Source: Planctomycetota bacterium
GTDB lineage: Bacteria; Planctomycetota; Phycisphaerae; Sedimentisphaerales; Anaerohalosphaeraceae
NCBI GenBank assembly: GCA_016873215.1
Contig: VGXU01000001.1
Location: 62,001-126,000 of the forward strand
Length of the DNA: 64,000 bases
Reading direction: 5' to 3'
Shown: piece by piece, positions 3,976-19,173 of the stretch
Numbering within the stretch: the first letter of the stretch is position 1
How the letters are laid out: the number at the start of each line of letters is the position of its first letter
Position numbers and translations under genes: made by a program
Notes under the pieces: generated by a model
Database searches by the model: none
Seen by the model: the letters and a program-made list of their open reading frames with translations, nothing else
Told to the model about the DNA's origin: nothing

Positions 3976-6900
3976 TTATTTGAGATTTTGGATGCACCAG
4001 TCGGCGAGGGCGGCCTGCTGTTTGTTTTGTGAATCGAGGGCGTGGCGGAGCTGCTTGAGGGTTTCGGTCAGGAATGGATTTTTCAAGACATCAGCAAGGC
4101 GTACGAGCGTTTTTGCCGCGGCAGTGCCGACGGAAGCGATATCCGAACTCATCGCGTCAATCAATACACCGACCGCCTGTTCGGCGGACAGGCCGTATCT
4201 TAATACCACGTCGCCGGCTTCGCCGTCCTCGGTGTAATTGGTTTCCTCAATCAGCCGGAGGGCGTCCAGATGCCGGGGCAGTTGTGTTCCCTGTATCCGT
4301 GCGTACATATCGATATAATCCCGCAGCGGCTTGATCCAGCGATGGTCGCGTGCAAAGGCGTTATAGACGAGGTCGTCATAATCCAGTTGTTTGGGTTTTC
4401 CGGATTCGTCTTTGTAGAGCCGTCTTTGGCCGTGGAAGTAAATCTCGGCGGCGTCGAGCATTGCTTCGAGCAGTCCTTCGCCGGTAAAGCCGGTGAATTT
4501 GACGCCGTTGGCGGGATAGTCTTTATCGCCGAAGTCGTTGTCTGAGACAGTATGCTGCAGGCCGTCCTGATGATGGGCGATGACGGGTGTTCCGCCGGTG
4601 TGTGCTTCCTGCTGACTGATGCCGCAGGGTTCGCCGACTTCGCCGCCGGAGGGCATGACGAAATACTGGCTGCCGACGTAAAGATTGCGATACAAATCGG
4701 GGCTGAGGCTGCCCTGCGGATAATACGCGAATCTGCCGGCCATATCGTTCCTGCCGGCGATGCGGCGCAGGTGCATATCGTACCTTCTGGCGTCCATGCT
4801 GTCTTCCACCCGTCCGCATATCACGAACTGGATGCGCGGGTCGGTGGAGAGGAAATATTCGAGCATTGTGAAGCCATCCATTCGCCACGGTTCCAGCCGG
4901 ACGTAGCGGTTTTGTCCGTCGGTATAGACTTTCCAGTCCACCAGCAGCTCAAAACCTTTTTGTCTGCAGATGCGGTGGAGCATCCCGAAAATAATGTGGT
5001 CGGCGTTTTCGCTGTCGGGCGTCAGGCGGATATTAGGGTCGTTTTGAAGATTGAGCTTGGCGGTTTTTTTGGCGGCGTAGTATTTGTAAAAGAGTCGTTT
5101 TCTGGCCAGGAGCTGCCAAGTCTCGACGAGACTTTTTTTGGTGTTGAACCAGGCGCGCTGGCGTGCTGCCATATTGAAACCGTTACGGCGGGCAAAGAAC
5201 AGTCCCGTTCGTTCTTTTTCAGCGAATTCCCATGCGTGGTTAAACAGCCACGTTTCGCGGAGCATTCGTTCTTTCATAGCTTTACTGACGGTGCCGATGA
5301 AATGGGAACTGCGGAGCATGGTGTGCATGAGGTCGATTTCATGTCCGTGCGGGCTATAGCGGTTGATGGCGAGGTCGTAATGGAATCGCGGGTCCAGGCC
5401 CAGGACGTTGGCATAATAATTTCGCTTTGCGGGGTTGGCTTCGGTCAGGACGATGCCGTACGACGGATGCGGGTTGTGCATCATGCTGCCGACTTTGGTG
5501 TTGGCGAAATGGGGGTCTTCGCGGTATTCCTTCCATGTTGCCAGGAATGCGGCGACCAACCATGTGGGCCATTCGTTGGTCTGAATGACGGACGGATAAT
5601 AATTGTACGCCCGCAGCGCTTCCAGCGCACCCTGAGCCAGCACGCGGGCGCGCCGCACTTTATCTTCGCCGGTGGAGCCGCTGTAAGGGGCGTCGAGGTA
5701 TGCGGCGTTTTCGATGTACAGCACCTCGATGCGCGAGCGTTTGCCGTAACGGCGACGCACGAGGTTGGCCCGCCGGATGTTGACCACCTCGACTTTGGAG
5801 CCTGGCTCAGCGGTTTGTGTCTGTTCGTTAAAATCGGGGAACCGAATGGTAAATTGATGTCCCTCAAACTTCGGGGCGAAATGTGAAAGAATCGCGCTGC
5901 GATTTCTTTCATACAGGGGCGTGACCAGCACGACGTGGAAGCCCAATTCACTGAGAACGTCGGCGATGTCGGTAGTATAGATGCCGACGCCGCCGGATTC
6001 GCCGCTGAATCGTGATTCGGGCGAGACCAGCACGATGGTTCCCAACTGCATGGACTGAAGAATATCGACGGCGGCCCGACAGAGGTCGCGGTCAAAAAGA
6101 CGCTGTTCGTTGATGGTGATTCGCATCAGGAAATCCGTCACGACCTGCGTGATTCCAGGATTGCGGTCGCCAAGGTCCCGCAGCAGGAGTCCCACCGAGG
6201 CGACGCCGTAATCGGCTTCTTCGAGGACCCAGTGAATCAGCAACTCGAATAACTCGCAAAACCGCTCGTATGAGGAATTATCCGGAGCGCAACATTCGAG
6301 AAATACCCGCGCGACATAACAGTGGCGAACGCGTTCCTCGCGTCCGTAGCGGAAAAACCGCCGGAAGGAATCGAAAAGAACCTGTTTTTCCTGAATCACA
6401 TGTTCTTTGGAAACAATTTCATAGACACTGCTGGATACCGGTTCCAGCGAGCCGCCGAATCCCAACTCCAGCAGTTCGTGGCCCGACCAGTATTCTTTTT
6501 GTCCCCATCGCATTTTGCCTTCGACGTTGTTGTATCGTTCCCGCATTTCGTAGAAATCCTGAAGATTGATTCCTTCGACGGGCCGGCCTGTTTCGGCGCT
6601 GCGCAGGCGGAAATTGTACGACCGCGCAATCGCCTGCTGACCTTCGAGGTAGGGGTTTGGGAAATTGAATACGCAGAGCAGTTTTTGTTTTGGGCACGAC
6701 CGGACAAACGCGGCGATGCGTCCGTTGCCGGTGGCGATGGGAGTGATTGTTCCCCTGGCTATCGCCGGGTTTTCGTCGGCAAAGGCAAACAATCCCCGCA
6801 GATACGTTCCGAATCCCCGCAGGTAAGGATAGTGGCGCAGGATGTCCTGTCGGGCGGTTTCTTCCTGCTGCCAGGGATGCGAGAAACGGTTATTGACCCA

Positions 6901-9633
6901 GTGTTTCCAGCATTCGGTATAAGCCATATCGAATCGTTTGGAGAAAGGTCCTGCTTCCGGTCCTGGCAGGCGGCTGATGTGATACATGACGGGGCCGTAA
7001 CTGCTGAAGACCAGCAGGGCCGCGGTCGGCCAAATCATATTCTGGTAATTGCTGGCCGGGGCTTCTTCATCGTGGCTGTTAAACAAGGACAGCGTCTGTC
7101 CGCCGTAGCGGTTCAGAAGCTGCTGCAGATATTCGAGATTGTTATTCAGTCCCAGCGGACTGTCCACGGCCTGACCGCTGCGGATATTTTCAAGATTTTT
7201 AATAACGGCGTTATAAGGAATCGTGGCGGATTTAATCATTCGCACTTCGTTGGCGTGCCATTGCTCGCTGTACATGAGCAGTGCTCCCGGCACCGCTTTC
7301 TGCACATGATAGGCGAGATACAAAATCGGAATGTTCGGTTCGTTGGTTCCGCGCAGGTCAATCGGCTCAAAGCCCTTGACGGTTACTTCCCCGAACAATT
7401 TCGACGTTTCGGTCTGGTCAGGATGCACGGGAAAAACCGTATCAAATCCGTGGCCTACGTCGATGCGCAGGCCGAAACCCAGTTCGGTCAGTTCCCTGCA
7501 GATTCCGGTCAGATATTCGACGTTGTCGAGGTCTCGCATATTGACCATAAAGCTGTCGAGCCATTCGGACCATTCGCCGTCCCAGCCGGCCCGGCGTGAC
7601 AGTTTTCCGTCGGGGCCGGTGATGTAGACCGGCAGGGTGTAAGGCCAACTGTGCCAGGCCCGCGAAAAATGACTCAGTACGCACAGCAGGATTTTCATTC
7701 CGAGTTCGTCGGCTCTTTTCTTGAGGCGCAGAAGACCTTCGATTCCTCCCAAATCATAGCGGATGGTGCGGCCGTCCCAGATGGAAAAGACGGAGGGGTC
7801 CGGCCCCGCTTCGCCGGCCCAGCCCAGCTCCATCGCACCGAGCGGATAAATCCGCGTGTAGCCTTCCTGTTTAATGGCGGGCAATTGTTCGGCCAGGTCA
7901 TCGAACGTGCCATAGACAAACGCGCCGGTTTCATCCCGGACAGGACGCCGGCTTGCGTCGAGCTTGAGATTGAAGGCGTCGGCGTAGAGGCTCAGTACCC
8001 GCTGGCCGCGTTCATCGGCGACGCGTTTCAGCAGGCCGTGCGAGTTTTCGTCGAATTTTTCGAACTGCCATGTTTTTCCCGCGTCGGTGGAAATCTGTAC
8101 GGAATAATGAATCCAGCCGTTTTGTCCCGGCAGGCGGGCCTCAAAGACCAGTTTTTCCTTGTCGGAAGCCGTTTTGTCCAATTGCATCGCCACGTTTTTT
8201 TTCTTGTGACCGTTGACCGACCATTGCACTCGTGCCTGGGTATTTTTGAGACCGATGCGGGCGGGCTTATGCGTACTAACGCGAATATGCGGTGATTCGC
8301 CGCGAAAATAGCTGCGATTGACCCTGGCGGGCGGAAAGGCCGCGGGCCGTTCCGTCAGGAGGTCTTCGAGGATTTTACTGACTCTCAGGCAGACCGACCG
8401 GCTGATGCCCTTGTTGGGATTGTGCCAGTAATACAGTGAGGCATAAAGCAGCCGCAGGGATTCATGGGCGTTTTGTTTATATCGAATCCGCCGGACCAGT
8501 TCGTCCATCGCGGCGTTAACGGTGTGGATGTGATCGGAAATCAGCATCCGCGACAATTCACCCAGCGCCGGGTCGGCGGCCCAGATTGTCAGCCGATCCA
8601 GCCACGGCCGGATAAAGGCGTCGTGGTCGTGAAAAATTTCCGTGCGGACGCCGTGCGAATAAACGCTGCGGCAGGCGTCGTCGTGACTCATCGCGTCGGC
8701 GAATCGTTCGGGGGCCACGCGAATCACTTTTGTGACATCCCGAGGGAGCTGATACACCACCACAATCGTTGAGAATTCAAAAAAGAGATGTTTGAATCCG
8801 ACCAGCGTTTTTTGAATGGCGTCAGGGGTGAGTTTTTTCGATTGGGCGAACAGAATAGCCTGACGGCTCAGGATATTACGAAGATGAGTCCGTTGTTTTT
8901 CCGGCTCGGTGCCAGCGGTGTTTAGAAATTCCGCCGCCGCCGGCGTCCGGCCGAAGTAGTCCCAGAATTCCTCCAGCAAAATCAGCGTGTCTAATTGCTG
9001 CAGGGCGTGCTGCAGGCGCAGCGGGCGGATTTTTTCCGGGAGGGCGTCAATCTGATTAATCGCGGCGTCGAGAATGGATTTATGCGCCTGGAAAAAATAC
9101 AGGCCGTATTGCTGCACCTGACTGATATGAAGGTCGGCATGGCAGAAATGATAAAAGACCATCGCCATGTATCCGGTCAGCAGCGCTTCCCGCTCCACTC
9201 GATTTTCGGCGTCGAAATCCAGAAGGCTCTCGTGCAGGAGGATTTCGTGCGGCATCAGAACCGCCGGCTGTTCGGCCATGAGGCTGATGCGCAGACGGAT
9301 TTTATGGTCGGTCAGATACGCATAATCCTGCGGATTGAATTTTGTGACCGTCTGCCATGTCTGTTCAAGGCAGCGATGAAGAAAGAAGGCCTTGTCCCGG
9401 CTGATTCCTTCGAGGACGGAAATATCGTTGTGGATTTCGCATTGTCCTTCGGGGGTGAACGTGAAGACCGCAACTGTGTCGAATCCCTTGACCTGTGTTT
9501 TCTCCGGGCTCATAACATCCTTATTGAGACAGTCTTTATCGGACCTGGCCTGCGGGCCGATGCTTTCATCTTCCCTCGGCGTGGTATCATCATTGCTTGT
9601 TGTGTTTTTGTCAAGCGTCTTTCGTTTTGGCAC
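3976..9633 (-). CDS. Fusion of GH13-like alpha-amylase domain and glycogen/starch synthase
   Basis: The 1885-residue protein has an all-helical N-terminal region (about 45-430), a carbohydrate-binding-like beta region (435-530), a GH13-type barrel (about 545-1080) and a GT5 glycogen-synthase module (about 1197-1785), followed by a HEAT-like tail. GH13 catalytic positions appear intact: D725 in GLRIDVGH, E790 in MYSEQW and D855 in FNSHDEE. The GT5 half has ESGGVGIYT (about 1211-1220) in place of the usual K-x-G-G-L sugar-nucleotide loop, and the retaining-GT E-x7-E motif (E1668, E1676). It probably remodels and elongates cytoplasmic alpha-glucan. The GTG at 9633 lacks a ribosome site; the ATG at 9513 (residue 41) has AAGGAT well spaced and may be the true start. 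It lies 79 bp after the SpoIIE-type phosphatase, probably co-transcribed. Donor specificity is not determined from sequence. Confidence 0.9.
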   Translation of the reverse strand: MPKRKTLDKNTTSNDDTTPREDESIGPQARSDKDCLNKDVMSPEKTQVKGFDTVAVFTFTPEGQCEIHNDISVLEGISRDKAFFLHRCLEQTWQTVTKFNPQDYAYLTDHKIRLRISLMAEQPAVLMPHEILLHESLLDFDAENRVEREALLTGYMAMVFYHFCHADLHISQVQQYGLYFFQAHKSILDAAINQIDALPEKIRPLRLQHALQQLDTLILLEEFWDYFGRTPAAAEFLNTAGTEPEKQRTHLRNILSRQAILFAQSKKLTPDAIQKTLVGFKHLFFEFSTIVVVYQLPRDVTKVIRVAPERFADAMSHDDACRSVYSHGVRTEIFHDHDAFIRPWLDRLTIWAADPALGELSRMLISDHIHTVNAAMDELVRRIRYKQNAHESLRLLYASLYYWHNPNKGISRSVCLRVSKILEDLLTERPAAFPPARVNRSYFRGESPHIRVSTHKPARIGLKNTQARVQWSVNGHKKKNVAMQLDKTASDKEKLVFEARLPGQNGWIHYSVQISTDAGKTWQFEKFDENSHGLLKRVADERGQRVLSLYADAFNLKLDASRRPVRDETGAFVYGTFDDLAEQLPAIKQEGYTRIYPLGAMELGWAGEAGPDPSVFSIWDGRTIRYDLGGIEGLLRLKKRADELGMKILLCVLSHFSRAWHSWPYTLPVYITGPDGKLSRRAGWDGEWSEWLDSFMVNMRDLDNVEYLTGICRELTELGFGLRIDVGHGFDTVFPVHPDQTETSKLFGEVTVKGFEPIDLRGTNEPNIPILYLAYHVQKAVPGALLMYSEQWHANEVRMIKSATIPYNAVIKNLENIRSGQAVDSPLGLNNNLEYLQQLLNRYGGQTLSLFNSHDEEAPASNYQNMIWPTAALLVFSSYGPVMYHISRLPGPEAGPFSKRFDMAYTECWKHWVNNRFSHPWQQEETARQDILRHYPYLRGFGTYLRGLFAFADENPAIARGTITPIATGNGRIAAFVRSCPKQKLLCVFNFPNPYLEGQQAIARSYNFRLRSAETGRPVEGINLQDFYEMRERYNNVEGKMRWGQKEYWSGHELLELGFGGSLEPVSSSVYEIVSKEHVIQEKQVLFDSFRRFFRYGREERVRHCYVARVFLECCAPDNSSYERFCELFELLIHWVLEEADYGVASVGLLLRDLGDRNPGITQVVTDFLMRITINEQRLFDRDLCRAAVDILQSMQLGTIVLVSPESRFSGESGGVGIYTTDIADVLSELGFHVVLVTPLYERNRSAILSHFAPKFEGHQFTIRFPDFNEQTQTAEPGSKVEVVNIRRANLVRRRYGKRSRIEVLYIENAAYLDAPYSGSTGEDKVRRARVLAQGALEALRAYNYYPSVIQTNEWPTWLVAAFLATWKEYREDPHFANTKVGSMMHNPHPSYGIVLTEANPAKRNYYANVLGLDPRFHYDLAINRYSPHGHEIDLMHTMLRSSHFIGTVSKAMKERMLRETWLFNHAWEFAEKERTGLFFARRNGFNMAARQRAWFNTKKSLVETWQLLARKRLFYKYYAAKKTAKLNLQNDPNIRLTPDSENADHIIFGMLHRICRQKGFELLVDWKVYTDGQNRYVRLEPWRMDGFTMLEYFLSTDPRIQFVICGRVEDSMDARRYDMHLRRIAGRNDMAGRFAYYPQGSLSPDLYRNLYVGSQYFVMPSGGEVGEPCGISQQEAHTGGTPVIAHHQDGLQHTVSDNDFGDKDYPANGVKFTGFTGEGLLEAMLDAAEIYFHGQRRLYKDESGKPKQLDYDDLVYNAFARDHRWIKPLRDYIDMYARIQGTQLPRHLDALRLIEETNYTEDGEAGDVVLRYGLSAEQAVGVLIDAMSSDIASVGTAAAKTLVRLADVLKNPFLTETLKQLRHALDSQNKQQAALADWCIQNLK

Positions 9634-13898: not shown

Positions 13899-14055
13899 AA
13901 AACCTATCCTTCGGTGAATGACCCTGCAAATCACGGATATAAAAAACAATGTACACGTTTTTTTTCCTCTCGACAAGTCTTATCTGAAAGGAAATAATAA
14001 AAGGGTATCTATAAAAGAAGCTGGTCATGAGATAAATGAGATAAAAGGAGAAACG

Positions 14056-14745
14056 ATGGCGACACCGATTGCCGGCGCCGCGGGCAAGGCGCCGATGAAA
14101 ACACTTTTGGCGCCATACGAAAAACGATTTATTCAGTGGCTGACGCCGCATTTTCCCCGGTGGATTGAGACGTGGCATTTGACCCTGCTGACGGTGCCGT
14201 GGTGTGCCGGGCTGATTGTGTTTGGTTTTCTGGCCGGGACGACGGGGAACCTGCATTGGCTGTGGGCCAGTTCGCTGATGATTTTTTTGCAGTGGTTCAC
14301 CGATGCTTTTGACGGCGCCATCGGTCGATACAAAGACACCGGCCTGATCAAGTGGGGCTTTTATATGGACCACCTGCTGGATTATGTTTTCACGTGTTCG
14401 ACGCTGATCGGCTATGCGCTGCTGGCCGAGGGGTTCAGCCGGGAGATTATTTTACTGCTGGTGCCTGTTTTCGGCGGCTATATGGTCGCGTCGTTTCTGG
14501 GCTTCGGCGCCACCGGCGAATTTAAGATTACTTACTTAGCCACGGGGCCGACGGAGATTCGCATCTGGTTTATTATTATTAACACGGTGCTGATTTTTTG
14601 CGGCACAAAATGGATTCTGCCGCTGCTGCTGTGGATTCTGGCTGTTTCGATGGGGATTTTGTGCATCCTGACTTTTCGCACGCAAAAATATCTCTGGAAG
14701 CTTGATATGGAAATAAAACGACAACAAACAATGGAGCACAAATAG
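14056..14745 (+). CDS. CDP-alcohol phosphatidyltransferase family membrane protein
   Basis: The 229-residue integral membrane protein has about six hydrophobic segments and the family active-site motif D83-x2-D86-G87-x2-G90-R91-x9-G101-x3-D105-x3-D109, with Gly in place of the usual Ala before Arg. The aspartates bind the metal ions that position the CDP-linked donor for transfer to an alcohol acceptor. The acceptor (glycerol phosphate, inositol, serine or other) cannot be told from sequence. The start is the ATG after AAAGGAG (14044-14050) rather than an upstream in-frame codon at 13918. A terminator follows at 14790-14818. Confidence 0.85.
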   Translation: MATPIAGAAGKAPMKTLLAPYEKRFIQWLTPHFPRWIETWHLTLLTVPWCAGLIVFGFLAGTTGNLHWLWASSLMIFLQWFTDAFDGAIGRYKDTGLIKWGFYMDHLLDYVFTCSTLIGYALLAEGFSREIILLLVPVFGGYMVASFLGFGATGEFKITYLATGPTEIRIWFIIINTVLIFCGTKWILPLLLWILAVSMGILCILTFRTQKYLWKLDMEIKRQQTMEHK

Positions 14746-14837: not shown

Positions 14838-14865
14838 TTGACTTTCCGATAAGCAGAGATATAAT
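14838..14865 (+). promoter_or_regulatory. Strong sigma70-type promoter upstream of nusA
   Basis: TTGACT (14838-14843) and a perfect TATAAT (14860-14865) are spaced by 16 bp. Transcription would begin near 14871, exactly where a series of RNA hairpins begins. It is among the clearest promoters in the window. Confidence 0.8.
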
Positions 14866-14870
14866 AATCG

Positions 14871-15169
14871 GGACGCCGGTGTCGGAAACTCCGGCGAATA
14901 GGAATCTAACTTATGGTAATATCAGGATTTATAAGTCGTGTATAGGCATAGTGGCACAAGTTACTATGCTCAAGCGTTTTGGATGCGCCAGCGACTTTTC
15001 GGGTATAAATTCTGTCTTCAGGGACGCGACAGAACAAGCCCCGAAGCAGGGAGGATGGTATGATGGCTGACTAAACTAACAGCCAGTTATTCCATCCGGT
15101 CTGCTGGATGGGCGGTATGTTCTGTGGTGATGAAAAGTGGCAACCTGAAGGTTTCCACTTTTTTATTTT
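14871..15169 (+). ncRNA. Structured RNA of about 295 nt between a promoter and a terminator, directly upstream of nusA
   Basis: The transcript predicted from the 14838-14865 promoter contains a chain of hairpins: CGCCGG/CCGGCG (14874-14896), ACTTAT/ATAAGT (14909-14936), GCATAGT/ACTATGC (14946-14969), a two-tier hairpin with TTCTGTC/GACAGAA (15010-15034) inside CTTTTCGGG/CCCGAAG (14995-15046), TGGCTG/CAGCCA (15064-15085) and CCATCC/GGATGG (15092-15111). It ends in an intrinsic terminator (15133-15169) 20 bp before the nusA start. It does not match tmRNA, RNase P, SRP, 6S or the common riboswitch consensus sequences I know. It is either a free-standing non-coding RNA or an attenuator leader of the nusA operon. 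A 63-codon open frame inside it has no ribosome site and is not taken as a gene. Confidence 0.7.
15133..15169 (+). terminator. Intrinsic terminator/attenuator just before nusA
   Basis: AAAAGTGG (15133-15140) pairs with CCACTTTT (15155-15162), extended inside by AACC/GGTT around a TGAA loop, and followed by a T-rich run. The nusA ribosome site lies just beyond, so read-through here would control nusA expression from the upstream promoter. Confidence 0.8.
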
Positions 15170-15189
15170 ATTACAGGGAAAAGGACAAA

Positions 15190-16422
15190 ATGAATCAGGA
15201 ATTATTGCGAATCGTTGAGAATATCGCGCGGGATAAAAACATCAGCAAGGAGTCCATTTTTGTGGACCTTGAATCGGCGATGGTTTCTGCGGCCCGTAAA
15301 TATTTCAGTTCCAAAGAAGCGAAAGAAACGGAACCGGAGGTGACGGTAAAAATTGACCGCAACACCGGCGAAATAAACGCATGGAAAGATAATGTGCAGA
15401 TTGATATTCGTCAATTGGGTCGTATTCCCGCACAGACGGCTAAACAAGTGATGATTCAGAAAATCCGCGCCGATGAACGCGACAGCATCTTTGCCGAGTA
15501 TGTGCAGCGCAAAGGGGAGATAATCACGGGTATAGCCGGTCGCTATGAGGGCGGGGTGCTGGTGGTGAATCTGAACAATCGGGTCGAGGCGATCATGCCC
15601 AAATCCGAACAGATTACCGGCGAGACGCATCATCCCGGCGACCGTATCCGCTGCATCATTCTCGATGTGCGGGAGACGAACAGCCAGATTAAAATTATCC
15701 TGTCGAGAACTCATCCTGACCTGATTCGCCGGCTGTTCGAACAGGAAGTGCCGGAAGTGGCTGAAAACATTATCGAAATCAAGGCTCTGGCCCGCGAGGC
15801 GGGGTATCGCACGAAAATCGCCGTGGAATCCACCGATGATAAAGTCGATCCGGTCGGTGCCTGCGTGGGAATCCGCGGCAGCCGGATTCGCAATATCGTC
15901 GATGAACTGGGCGGCGAGAAAATCGACATCGTCAAATGGAGTGATTCTTCGCAGGCACTGATCGCTAATGCGCTGATGCCGGCCAAGGTGAGTGAAATTG
16001 CAATCTGTTTTGAACTGGGCAAGGCCACGGTGGTCGTCGCCGAAGACCAGCTCAGTCTCGCTATCGGCAAGCACGGTCAAAACGTGCGGCTGGCGGCCCG
16101 TCTGACCGGCTGGGATATTGATATTCTGACCCCGGCGGAATACAACCGCGAAGTGGACCGGCTGGCGGGTTGTCTGAAAGAAATTCCCGGAGTGGACGAT
16201 CGGCTGGTGGATAAATTACTGGCGCTGGGAATTGTGTCTGTTCTGGACCTCGAGGAAGTCGGCCCGGAACCGTTGATGAAAGAACTGAGCGTCGAAAAAC
16301 CACTTGCGGAACAGGTGGTTGCGTCGGCGACCGAAACGGCCAAGAAAGCGGCGGCGGAAAGTCTGGCTACTCAGGCCGAAAGTCTGATCCGGGAACAACA
16401 AGAAAAAAGACGTTCCCGCTGA
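15190..16422 (+). CDS. nusA: Transcription termination/antitermination factor NusA
   Basis: The 410-residue protein has the NusA N-terminal RNA-polymerase-binding domain (about 1-105), an S1 RNA-binding domain (108-175), two KH domains (KH1 with GACVGIRGSRI at 223-233; KH2 with AIGKHGQNVR at 291-300) and a short helix-hairpin-helix-like tail (about 330-385). NusA modulates pausing, termination and antitermination. The ATG follows AAAAGGA; an in-frame codon upstream at 15124 would run through the terminator hairpin and is rejected. No rimP lies upstream, unlike the usual rimP-nusA-infB order; the structured RNA takes that place. It is followed by infB after 57 bp. Confidence 0.97.
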   Translation: MNQELLRIVENIARDKNISKESIFVDLESAMVSAARKYFSSKEAKETEPEVTVKIDRNTGEINAWKDNVQIDIRQLGRIPAQTAKQVMIQKIRADERDSIFAEYVQRKGEIITGIAGRYEGGVLVVNLNNRVEAIMPKSEQITGETHHPGDRIRCIILDVRETNSQIKIILSRTHPDLIRRLFEQEVPEVAENIIEIKALAREAGYRTKIAVESTDDKVDPVGACVGIRGSRIRNIVDELGGEKIDIVKWSDSSQALIANALMPAKVSEIAICFELGKATVVVAEDQLSLAIGKHGQNVRLAARLTGWDIDILTPAEYNREVDRLAGCLKEIPGVDDRLVDKLLALGIVSVLDLEEVGPEPLMKELSVEKPLAEQVVASATETAKKAAAESLATQAESLIREQQEKRRSR

Positions 16423-16479: not shown

Positions 16480-19173
16480 TTGGCAAAGACTGTCAAGACT
16501 GTCACGAGAGTATATTTACTGGCCAAAGAGTTGGGCGTGGCCAGTAAGGCCATCTTAGCCAAGTGCGTGGATGAAGGCATGGAGCTGAAAGGCGGTCACA
16601 TGACTCCGCTGACGGCGGGTCAGGCCGCGACCATTCGCGAATGGTTCAGCGAGGGTGCACACGTTACCGCGGTGGAAACGGCTAAGCCGGTCGATCTCGA
16701 AAAAGTTCGTGTACGCAGGAAAAAAGCGGGGGCGCCCGTCGTGACAGTGGAAGAAGCGCCGCAGGCGACAAGCGTTTTGCAGCCGGAAGCTCCGGGTACG
16801 GCGGAAACGCAAACGCCGGAAACACCCTCTGAATCGCAGACGGCCCAGGCAGTTGCCGCGACGACTCAGGCGGAACCTTCTCAAATTCCATCCGACGAAT
16901 CCGACTGGGCTGCGGGAGCGATGGTTGAAACACCGGTTGAGCCGCCCGAGCCTGTAGTCCCGCCGCCGGCCTATCCTGCGCCGGTGATGCATGTTCCGCC
17001 CAAACCCAAGGACGTCAAGCCGGCAGGTCCAATGCATAAACCCAAGCCGGCCAAATTAAGCGGTCCGACGGTGATTCGAGTTGAGTCGGTTGAGACCGAT
17101 GCGCTGCGTCCGCCCAAAAAAGGCAAAGCCGCCCGTGAAAAAATAAAAGAACCTGTCGGAGAGGTATTATTGCTGGGTAAAGCCGAACCCGCGGTTCCCG
17201 TCAAAGCCAAGAAACCCGGCAAGGATAAAGGTAAAAAAGGCAAAGGAGGTTTTGAGGACGAAGAACGTCTCAAGGGCGGCAAGCGCATGCGTGCCAGAGA
17301 CATGGAAGAGCGGCAGGCGCGTCTGGCCGCGGCCAGCGGCGAGTCGCTGCGATTTCGTCCGGTTCGGCGGATTGAGACGCGGACAGGGGAAGAGGCGGCG
17401 GCGGTAGAGCGTCCTGAAAAGACGGTGATCACCGAGCCGATACTGGTTAAAGATTTGGCTGCGGCGCTGCGTGTCAAAATCGGCGACATCATTGGACGGC
17501 TGATGAAACAAGGCGTTATGGCCACAGCCAATCAGGCGCTGGCGACAGACACGGCTGAATTGATCGCGATGGAATTCGGTACGGAACTGATTGTCCAGAA
17601 GAAACAAACACTGATAGAACAAATTCACCGTCAGTATGAGCAGCGGGAAAAAACGAATCTTCAAAAACGGCCTCCGATAGTGACGATGCTGGGGCATGTG
17701 GACCACGGCAAGACCAGCCTGCTGGACCGGATTCGCCGGGCGGAAGTCGCCAAGGGCGAGGCCGGCGGAATTACGCAGCATATCGGCGCTTATCAGGCGG
17801 AGTTGAAGGGCAAAAAGGTGACGTTTCTGGATACGCCCGGCCACGAGGCATTTACGACACTGCGTGCCCGCGGAGCGAATATGACGGACATCGTGGTATT
17901 GGTGGTGGCCGCCGATGACGGGGTGATGCCGCAGACGGTGGAAGCCATTCGGCACGCCAAGGCCGCCAATGTTCAGATGATTGTGGCAATGAACAAAATT
18001 GACCTGCCCGGCACGGACTTGCATCGCATCTACGGGCAGCTTGCCGAGCAGGAATTGACGCCGACCGAATGGGGCGGCAATACCGAAATCATCAAGACCA
18101 GCGCGATTACGGGAGAGGGGATAGAGAGTTTGCTGGAACATCTGGATTATATCGCGGAACTGAAAGAGTATAAAGCTGATCCGACGATTCCCGCAACCGG
18201 CTGGGTGATCGAGGCGAAAATGACGCAGAGCCGCGGCGCCGTAGCGACATTGCTGGTGCAGGAAGGCTGTTTTGAAAAAGGCGATATTCTTCTGGTCGGC
18301 AGCGCTTATGGTCGTGTCCGCACGATTACCGACAGCCATGGGCGCAGCATTCAGAAAGCCGAACCGGCGATGCCGGTGGAGATTTCGGGTCTGGCAGAAG
18401 TTCCGCAGGCCGGCGACCGGTTTTATAAACTCGATGATATCAACCAGGCTAAACAGGCGGCGGATGAAAATAAACACCTTGTGCGTGAAGAATCGCTGGC
18501 CCGACGGTCGCAAATTACGCTGGATAATCTGTTCAGCCAGATTGCCGCCGGCAATATCAAGGAATTGAATCTGATCGTCAAAGCCGACGTGCAGGGTTCG
18601 GTGGAAGTACTGAATAAATACCTGACTGATTTGAGTACGCCGGAAGTCAAGGTCAAGATTTTGCACGCTGCCGTCGGCGGTATAACCGAAGGTGACGTGG
18701 TTTTGGCCGAGGCGTCCCGTGCGATTATTATCGGTTTTAACGTCGTCCCCGACGAACATGTTCGGCAGCTGGCCGACAGCAAAGGCGTCGATGTCCGCCT
18801 GTACAGTATTATCTATCGTATTACAGAGGACGTCCGTGCCGCGATGGTTGGTCTGCTGGAACCTGAATATCAGGAAAAGACGCTTGGCCGGCTGACGGTA
18901 CGAAACACTTTCAAGGTGTCCGGTATTGGTACCATTGCCGGCTGTTATGTGACCAGCGGCATGGTCGCCAAGAATGCCAAGCTGCGGCTTATCCGCAACA
19001 ACATTGTTGTCAAGGATAAGTATTCCATTGAATCGCTGAAACACTTTAAGGACGACGTGCGGGAAGTCAAGACGGGTTTGGAGTGCGGCGTCAAAATCGC
19101 CAACTTTGATGATGTCAAGGTTGACGATGTGCTGGAAGCATACGAAATTGTTGAGGTGGCCAGAACTCTGTAG
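16480..19173 (+). CDS. infB: Translation initiation factor IF-2
   Basis: The 897-residue GTPase brings initiator tRNA to the small ribosomal subunit. An IF2_N helical domain (about 1-55) and a long Pro/Glu/Lys-rich linker (60-290) precede a second IF2_N-like segment (about 310-365). The G domain carries GHVDHGKT (405-412), DTPGHE and NKID, followed by domains II to IV ending in EIVEVARTL. The start is a TTG preceded by AGGAG (spacing 8), consistent with the conserved first residues [11 protein letters not shown]. The gene is co-directional with nusA and rbfA, the standard bacterial order. Confidence 0.97.

Follow-up and report, generated by a model that had tools for sequence, protein, structure and literature searches.

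Minimal reading frame and terminator in a planctomycete nusA-infB leader: a candidate for ribosome-gated attenuation

The nusA-infB gene pair is nearly universal among bacteria. In the window analysed here, a stretch of 64,000 nucleotides from a genome of Sedimentisphaerales (an order of Phycisphaerae in the phylum Planctomycetota), nusA is preceded by a promoter, a structured leader and a terminator, and no rimP gene is present. What does this leader do, and which signal would decide whether transcription runs on into nusA and infB? The first-pass annotation of this DNA had left two answers side by side, a free-standing RNA or an attenuator leader controlling the synthesis of NusA and IF2. 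The second answer was supported by conservation of the terminator, by a strand complementary to the terminator, and by a single nusA-adjacent match in each matched genome of the window's family. We consider it probable that the leader is a cis-acting transcription attenuator of nusA-infB that is gated, with one sign or the other, by ribosomes on a minimal open reading frame (ORF). From sequence comparison, the ORFs and the terminator appear well supported and the antiterminator moderately so.

Layout and conservation of the leader

The gene nusA (positions 15190 to 16422 of the window, plus strand; NCBIfam TIGR01953, 335 bits) has a Shine-Dalgarno (SD) sequence AAGGA at 15181 to 15185. It is followed by infB, the downstream operon gene that encodes IF2 (16480 to 19173, plus strand; NCBIfam TIGR00487, 740 bits), and then by rbfA (NCBIfam and Pfam). 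The absence of rimP, already remarked in the first-pass annotation, was found again in the relatives: the RimP_N model PF02576, the sole model used, matched none of 31 genomes (the window's genome, G000, and 30 relatives) and matched 10 of 14 reference genomes as a positive control. Thus, the ribosome maturation factor RimP seems to have been lost in Sedimentisphaerales. The gene directly upstream (13918 to 14745) looks membrane-protein-like by eye and has no Pfam or NCBIfam match at the thresholds used. Elsewhere in the window, on the minus strand, a 1885-aa ORF (3976 to 9633) looks by eye like a fusion of amylase-like and glycosyltransferase-like parts.

The leader, about 290 nt long between the promoter and nusA, lies behind a sigma-70-type promoter (TTGACT-16-TATAAT, 14838 to 14865, plus strand). 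This site, claimed earlier as near-consensus, is present with 11 of 12 consensus matches, and its 16-nt spacer is kept in close relatives. Because a promoter scan of the region was no better than chance (two sites with at least 9 of 12 matches versus 1.7 expected), the support for the promoter comes from its recurrence in relatives. Among 90 order leaders, by which we mean leaders of Sedimentisphaerales (three were left out as too short), 66 had a best site with 10 or more of the 12 matches, counted without a shuffled control. By family, and again without such a control, this level was reached in 32 of 32 leaders of f1, the window's own family, and 11 of 11 of f2, all with a spacer of 16, and in only 13 of 30 of f7.

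The region 14872 to 15175 has a folding energy of -116.7 kcal/mol versus -85.0 +/- 5.2 kcal/mol for 100 dinucleotide shuffles (z -6.05), and its minimum free energy (MFE) fold contains about seven helices. To this extent the perfect hairpins described earlier, at least seven in number, are borne out. Most of them are not demonstrated as a conserved feature, because RNAalifold, applied to the 3' half of 28 leaders, returned only the terminator hairpin, and a stem linking the end of the upstream ORF (uORF1) to downstream RNA was rejected as a candidate with 7.40 of 9 pairs in 30 f1 leaders versus 7.17 in shuffles. The earlier remark that the RNA fits no recognised family held at both the gathering and relaxed thresholds of Rfam for the window leader and 20 chosen relatives. 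No Rfam family reached its gathering score anywhere in the 64-kb window, and the best sub-threshold E-value within the leader was 1.5.

The intrinsic terminator (15132 to 15169, plus strand) consists of a hairpin at 15132 to 15163 and a T tract to about 15169, and it ends 20 bp ahead of the nusA ATG at 15190, as the first-pass annotation had it. It was found by folding; a simple terminator scan missed it because the stem is interrupted. The median distance from terminator to nusA in f1 is 29 nt. In two same-genus relatives (L002 and L003) about 76 nt separate terminator and nusA, versus 27 nt in the window, and the gap in L003 has an extra inverted-repeat-like stretch, TCGGCCGGTCAG..CTGGTCGA. 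At another locus (L101 332-604, genome G053) the interval from the leader terminator to nusA contains a 90-aa ORF (MNPVRPRWFYTYYLKCVKDETFYTGCTNDLRKRLKEHNQ..) whose stop overlaps the nusA start; by eye, its motif resembles that of a GIY-YIG endonuclease domain.

The leader is conserved in related genomes. With the leader DNA as query, blastn matched 28 of 59 genomes, counting the window's own; every one belongs to family f1 and has a single match, beside nusA. A covariance model, built from 28 of the 34 f1 leaders that it matched, found the leader in 34 of 39 f1 genomes (again with the window's own), with one match each, ahead of nusA. The five misses are attributed to assembly gaps because the nusA start is missing from those assemblies: G005, G013 and G022 have no NusA match, G030 has a nusA fragment at a contig edge, and the contig of G059 ends inside nusA. 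Across the class, the model matched 19 of 298 genomes, comprising 15 of f1 and four weak matches (E 1e-4 to 3e-4) in f4 and f7, each of them immediately ahead of nusA. When the nusA upstream regions of 59 genomes of families f2 to f7 were read by eye, a diverged form of the leader was seen in most; these leaders were chosen for preceding nusA, and exclusive linkage to nusA was therefore tested in f1. By these comparisons, the leader, in diverged form, occurs in most sampled Sedimentisphaerales and in some other Phycisphaerae orders. The genomes are kin to one another, and all counts given here are accordingly non-independent. Furthermore, the limit of three codons used below, like the uORF1 pattern and the rule for terminators, was set once the sequences had already been inspected by eye.

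These findings bear on the possibility of an independent small RNA that has a promoter and a terminator of its own. A promoter and a terminator do flank the region, and a terminated product of roughly 290 nt would result. This reading has to face the single match per f1 genome, placed before nusA in all 34, as well as the complement to the leader's own terminator and the short ORFs. A pair of ORFs that look translated, together with an antiterminator that competes with the terminator, is most easily understood in cis, so the claim of a free-standing RNA is not favoured, and we regard it as highly improbable.

Terminators of the AAGUGG..CCAC type were found with a loose rule in 93 of 93 order leaders and in 25 of 40 leaders of other orders; four were placed manually, two as replacements and two as additions in leaders that the rule had missed. 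The 40 leaders of other orders were picked among the matches listed, with families f8, f13, f14, f17 and f23 unrepresented. For want of the signature terminator, 15 of 133 leaders were dropped, all from other orders. Same-kind terminators were absent from families f10, f11, f22, f24 and f25 as sampled (12 leaders), and f20 had one doubtful case among four leaders.

The recurrence of one type of terminator across much of the class counts in favour of a reading in which NusA feedback on the terminator is the whole mechanism, with NusA stimulating termination in the leader and the short ORFs being secondary. In the accessible parts of two reports, such feedback is proposed for rimP-leaders (PMC2965389) and for Streptococcus agalactiae (PMC4448216), the latter citing work in E. 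coli. However, NusA acting alone would leave unexplained a conserved minimal ORF with a strong SD, uORF1, and a strand complementary to the terminator. Thus we hold it to be rather unlikely as a full account; action of NusA on the terminator, as raised in the first-pass annotation, is possible alongside ribosome gating.

Two short open reading frames

The first-pass annotation had mentioned neither of the two short ORFs of the leader, nor the strand complementary to its terminator. The minimal ORF, ORF2, occupies 15050 to 15074 on the plus strand. It consists of an SD sequence GGAGG (15050 to 15054), an AUG at 15060 or 15063, the codons GCU GAC and the stop UAA (15072 to 15074). With a minimal ORF defined as an SD word 3 to 11 nt before an AUG, followed by 0 to 3 sense codons and a stop, one was present in 82 of the 93 order leaders versus 3.8 expected from dinucleotide shuffles, and in 15 of 25 leaders of other orders versus 0.4 expected. 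In a separate count the AUG was chosen by SD strength alone, six of 118 leaders being dropped as they had no SD-preceded AUG; a stop then followed within four codons in 89 of 112 leaders in frame, compared to 13 and 30 in the other two frames.

What stands between start and stop varies with the family. AUG is followed by a stop without any sense codon in 29 of 30 f7 leaders and 10 of 12 f2 leaders, ORF2 reads AUG-CGN-stop in seven of the eight leaders of f18 and f19, and in f1 it has 1 to 3 sense codons (31 of 34 leaders), with all three stop types. Among the f1 leaders without a scored ORF2, G003 and G032 have GGGGGG replacing the listed SD words, and G024 has a GUG start. A scored minimal ORF was missing from 11 of the 93 order leaders, five of them among ten f5 leaders, and from all ten leaders of f12, f15, f16 and f26. 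A pattern scan for the f7 start-stop core gave no match in 199 genomes of the phylum, a result without bearing on the spread of the core, as no f7 genome was among those listed. Since the number of sense codons, the identity of the stop and the codons themselves vary while the SD, the AUG and the early stop are constant, translation of ORF2, and not a fixed RNA string, appears to be what is kept. With hardly any sense codon, such an ORF would report initiation and termination and hardly elongation.

Upstream of ORF2 lies uORF1 (14900 to 14945, plus strand), with an SD sequence AGGA at 14900 to 14903 and an ORF at 14913 to 14945 that encodes MVISGFISRV and ends in UAG. Across leaders, uORF1 has 10 to 13 codons, and its peptides in relatives include MIQTGKVSRASV (f1), MIFIGIYSRV (f2) and MVLTGLANRAE (f7). 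The pattern M-x(5-8)-[SNYDRH][RSA][AVESD]-x(0-3)-stop, composed after the peptides had been read, describes the ORF with the highest SD rank in 64 of 91 order leaders versus 1.6 expected from shuffles; two f1 leaders were left out of this count as too short. None of ten f5 leaders fits, two look-alike f5 peptides, MDGKTSRVSA and MDWKGNRVSA, falling outside the pattern.

Could uORF1 itself be the sensor, with ribosomes that slow down or arrest at the conserved S/N-R/S-A end selecting the fold and ORF2 being secondary? Conservation of the ORF and of its C-terminal residues speaks for this, as does the use of UAG in 26 of the 27 pattern-matched f1 uORF1s. However, no run of one amino acid's codons was seen by eye in the uORF1 peptides or in ORF2, and the long-range stem at the end of uORF1 was at the level of shuffles. 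In addition, several of the codons look conserved as nucleotides too, which leaves constraint on the RNA unseparated from constraint on the peptide. We therefore judge a sensing role of uORF1 in place of ORF2 to be quite unlikely.

The origin of uORF1 may lie in a longer gene. At 18 of 78 named loci (L192, L214, L221 and 15 further ones), a frame like an ABC ATPase of the MalK/UgpC type ends 188 to 417 nt before nusA; family scans with Pfam and NCBIfam were done on two query frames, those of L214 and L192. Some of these frames have tails near the place of uORF1 that read ..INGMNSRVGS and ..NEATSRVA. Within f5, one genome has the long ABC-ATPase frame (L192), and G055 and G321 have a short ORF with a similar end. 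Judged by position and a few residues, uORF1 could be a relic of the 3' end of an ABC-ATPase gene.

The antiterminator strand and a possible ribosome gate

A candidate antiterminator strand, CUUCAGG (15016 to 15022, plus strand), is complementary to the apical CCUGAAG (15144 to 15150) in the terminator. In f1, this pairing with the terminator loop has 7 of 7 pairs in 29 of 34 leaders; the motif is lost in G060, and a mismatch or gap is found in G004, G009, G024 and G034. In f7, a conserved GUUUCUGCUUCA can pair with UGAAGUGGAAAC, the 5' arm of the terminator, all 12 pairs being possible in 15 of 30 leaders. The first-pass annotation had looked to compensatory changes for support, and one exists: f1 leader G008 has A-U for C-G, changed on both sides. 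The effect is modest, and covariation within families appears weak, as the motifs hardly vary there; when partners were shuffled, the observed pairing was reached in 2246 of 5000 shuffles for f7, 199 of 5000 for f2 and 31 of 5000 for f1.

The two partner sequences vary from family to family, and the fit of each strand to its own terminator was compared with its fit to foreign ones. Among the 93 order leaders, after row and column correction, pairing with the own terminator was -2.07 kcal/mol versus +0.39 kcal/mol with terminators of other families (sd 2.48), and in 25 leaders of other orders the values were -3.34 and +0.09. The f6 leader is a clear exception, most foreign terminators suiting it better than its own. 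The share of foreign terminators that were as good or better had a median of 15% (23% for f1, 8.5% for f7), and only 22 of 93 leaders had an own terminator that ranked with the top 5% of foreign ones. When the upstream region was shuffled instead, at most 1 of 100 shuffles was as good in 15 of 30 leaders of f7, 4 of 12 of f2, 4 of 34 of f1, 0 of 5 of f4 and 1 of 10 of f5. The window's own pairing does not stand out in this comparison, 9 of 100 shuffles being as good.

A second predicted stem, P2, has its 5' strand ACAGAAC at 15029 to 15035 and its 3' strand GUUCUGU at 15119 to 15125 (both plus strand). P2 encloses ORF2 in predicted folds and would place the antiterminator strand beside the terminator. 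For the window, the fold with the terminator has -113.5 kcal/mol and that with CUUCAGG:CCUGAAG forced has -109.1 kcal/mol, a gap of 4.4 kcal/mol, and P2 is part of both. In f1, pairing of the loop might leave the outer stem of the terminator able to form. In the transcript as it stands ahead of terminator synthesis, the antiterminator strand was predicted to pair in a local hairpin in f2 and partially in f7, and at no single site in f1.

Attenuation gated by ribosomes on ORF2 would then work as follows. The upstream strand would form an antiterminator helix with the 5' arm or the loop of the terminator, and P2 around ORF2 would bring these partners close. A ribosome initiating on ORF2, and unable or nearly unable to elongate there, would sit in P2 and hinder both P2 and the antiterminator, so that the terminator forms. 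When initiation is poor, with little IF2 or few free 30S subunits, ORF2 would stay empty, P2 and the antiterminator would form, and nusA and infB would be transcribed. ORF2 would thus read out initiation alone, placing IF2 under negative feedback. uORF1 may serve to stop upstream RNA from trapping the antiterminator strand.

On geometry, this sign, in which an empty ORF2 means readthrough, is somewhat the likelier of the two. With the opposite sign, a ribosome on ORF2 would block pairing of its SD with a downstream CCUC sequence, allowing P2 and the antiterminator to form, and good initiation would switch nusA-infB on. By eye, most f7 leaders do have an ACCUC past ORF2 that could pair either with an upstream GAGGU, as part of P2, or with the ORF2 SD GGAGG. 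However, the SD pairing looks shorter than P2, and a ribosome within P2 should obstruct it sterically. Equilibrium folding with ORF2 masked as occupied is compatible with this opposite sign. The terminator probability rose in two and fell in four of 31 f1 leaders, rose in one and fell in two of 11 f2 leaders, and rose in one and fell in two of 30 f7 leaders. Because these changes have no consistent direction, the sign is left undecided by folding. Within the ribosome-gated reading, we hold the opposite sign to be somewhat the less likely of the two.

A more specific version of ribosome gating is put forward tentatively. The leader may be a dedicated RNA sensor of initiation capacity, in which a start-stop ORF (AUG-UAG) in a terminator/antiterminator leader lets initiation without elongation set transcription of the IF2 gene, with uORF1 further upstream possibly being a relic of an ABC-ATPase gene. 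If so, control of IF2 supply would be directly testable with a minimal ORF that reports little but initiation, and start-stop ORFs would gain a conserved regulatory role.

Comparison with known systems

In leader-peptide attenuators of the trp and his type, the position of a ribosome in a short leader ORF determines whether a terminator or an antiterminator forms. The leader described here is similar in having a short leader ORF as the proposed ribosome readout of such a choice. It differs in that there is no regulatory codon run and the most conserved ORF has 0 to 3 sense codons. Complementarity between terminator and antiterminator is present and differs in step between families, with weak covariation inside them.

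The closest counterpart by operon is the rimP-leader, the attenuator of rimP-nusA-infB operons described by Naville and Gautheret in 2010 (PMC2965389). The accessible part of that report calls it the most ubiquitous transcription attenuator, names NusA as the likeliest regulator, as a proposal only, and has an antiterminator visible only in several Gammaproteobacteria and no larger conserved element. As far as that text goes, the two leaders share the nusA-infB operon and an intrinsic terminator shortly ahead of the first gene, whereas the leader here has two ORFs and a putative antiterminator strand, and rimP is missing. The GGGc(...)gCCC stem given there for rimP-leaders is absent from the window's leader, whose stem is AAAAGUGGCAACC..GGUUUCCACUUUU (GUGG..CCAC). 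It is approached in relatives of other orders, for example GAAGUGGGCGAGGCACCCACUUU, and several other Phycisphaerae families carry AAGUGGG..CCCACUUUUUU, which is near that stem. No rimP-leader model was among the Rfam matches at E-values up to 10 for the leader and up to 5 for the 20 chosen relatives. Because both the GGGc..gCCC stem and the Rfam comparison fail, the window leader was not filed as a rimP-leader. Judged by its sequence, it would act on the rimP-leader's operon in a similar manner.

The titles and abstract openings of the open-licence literature yielded no description of this leader and no start-stop ORF conserved in an attenuator. One report gives start-stop sites with possible regulatory roles from ribosome profiling of Campylobacter and cites others in E. 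coli (PMC11955535). The accessible text of that report describes 18 Campylobacter sites that are internal, out of frame and from one species. Compared to these, ORF2 is alike in that a stop follows the AUG at once or nearly so. It is unlike them in that conservation of the start-stop extends over a family, in leaders that carry a terminator.
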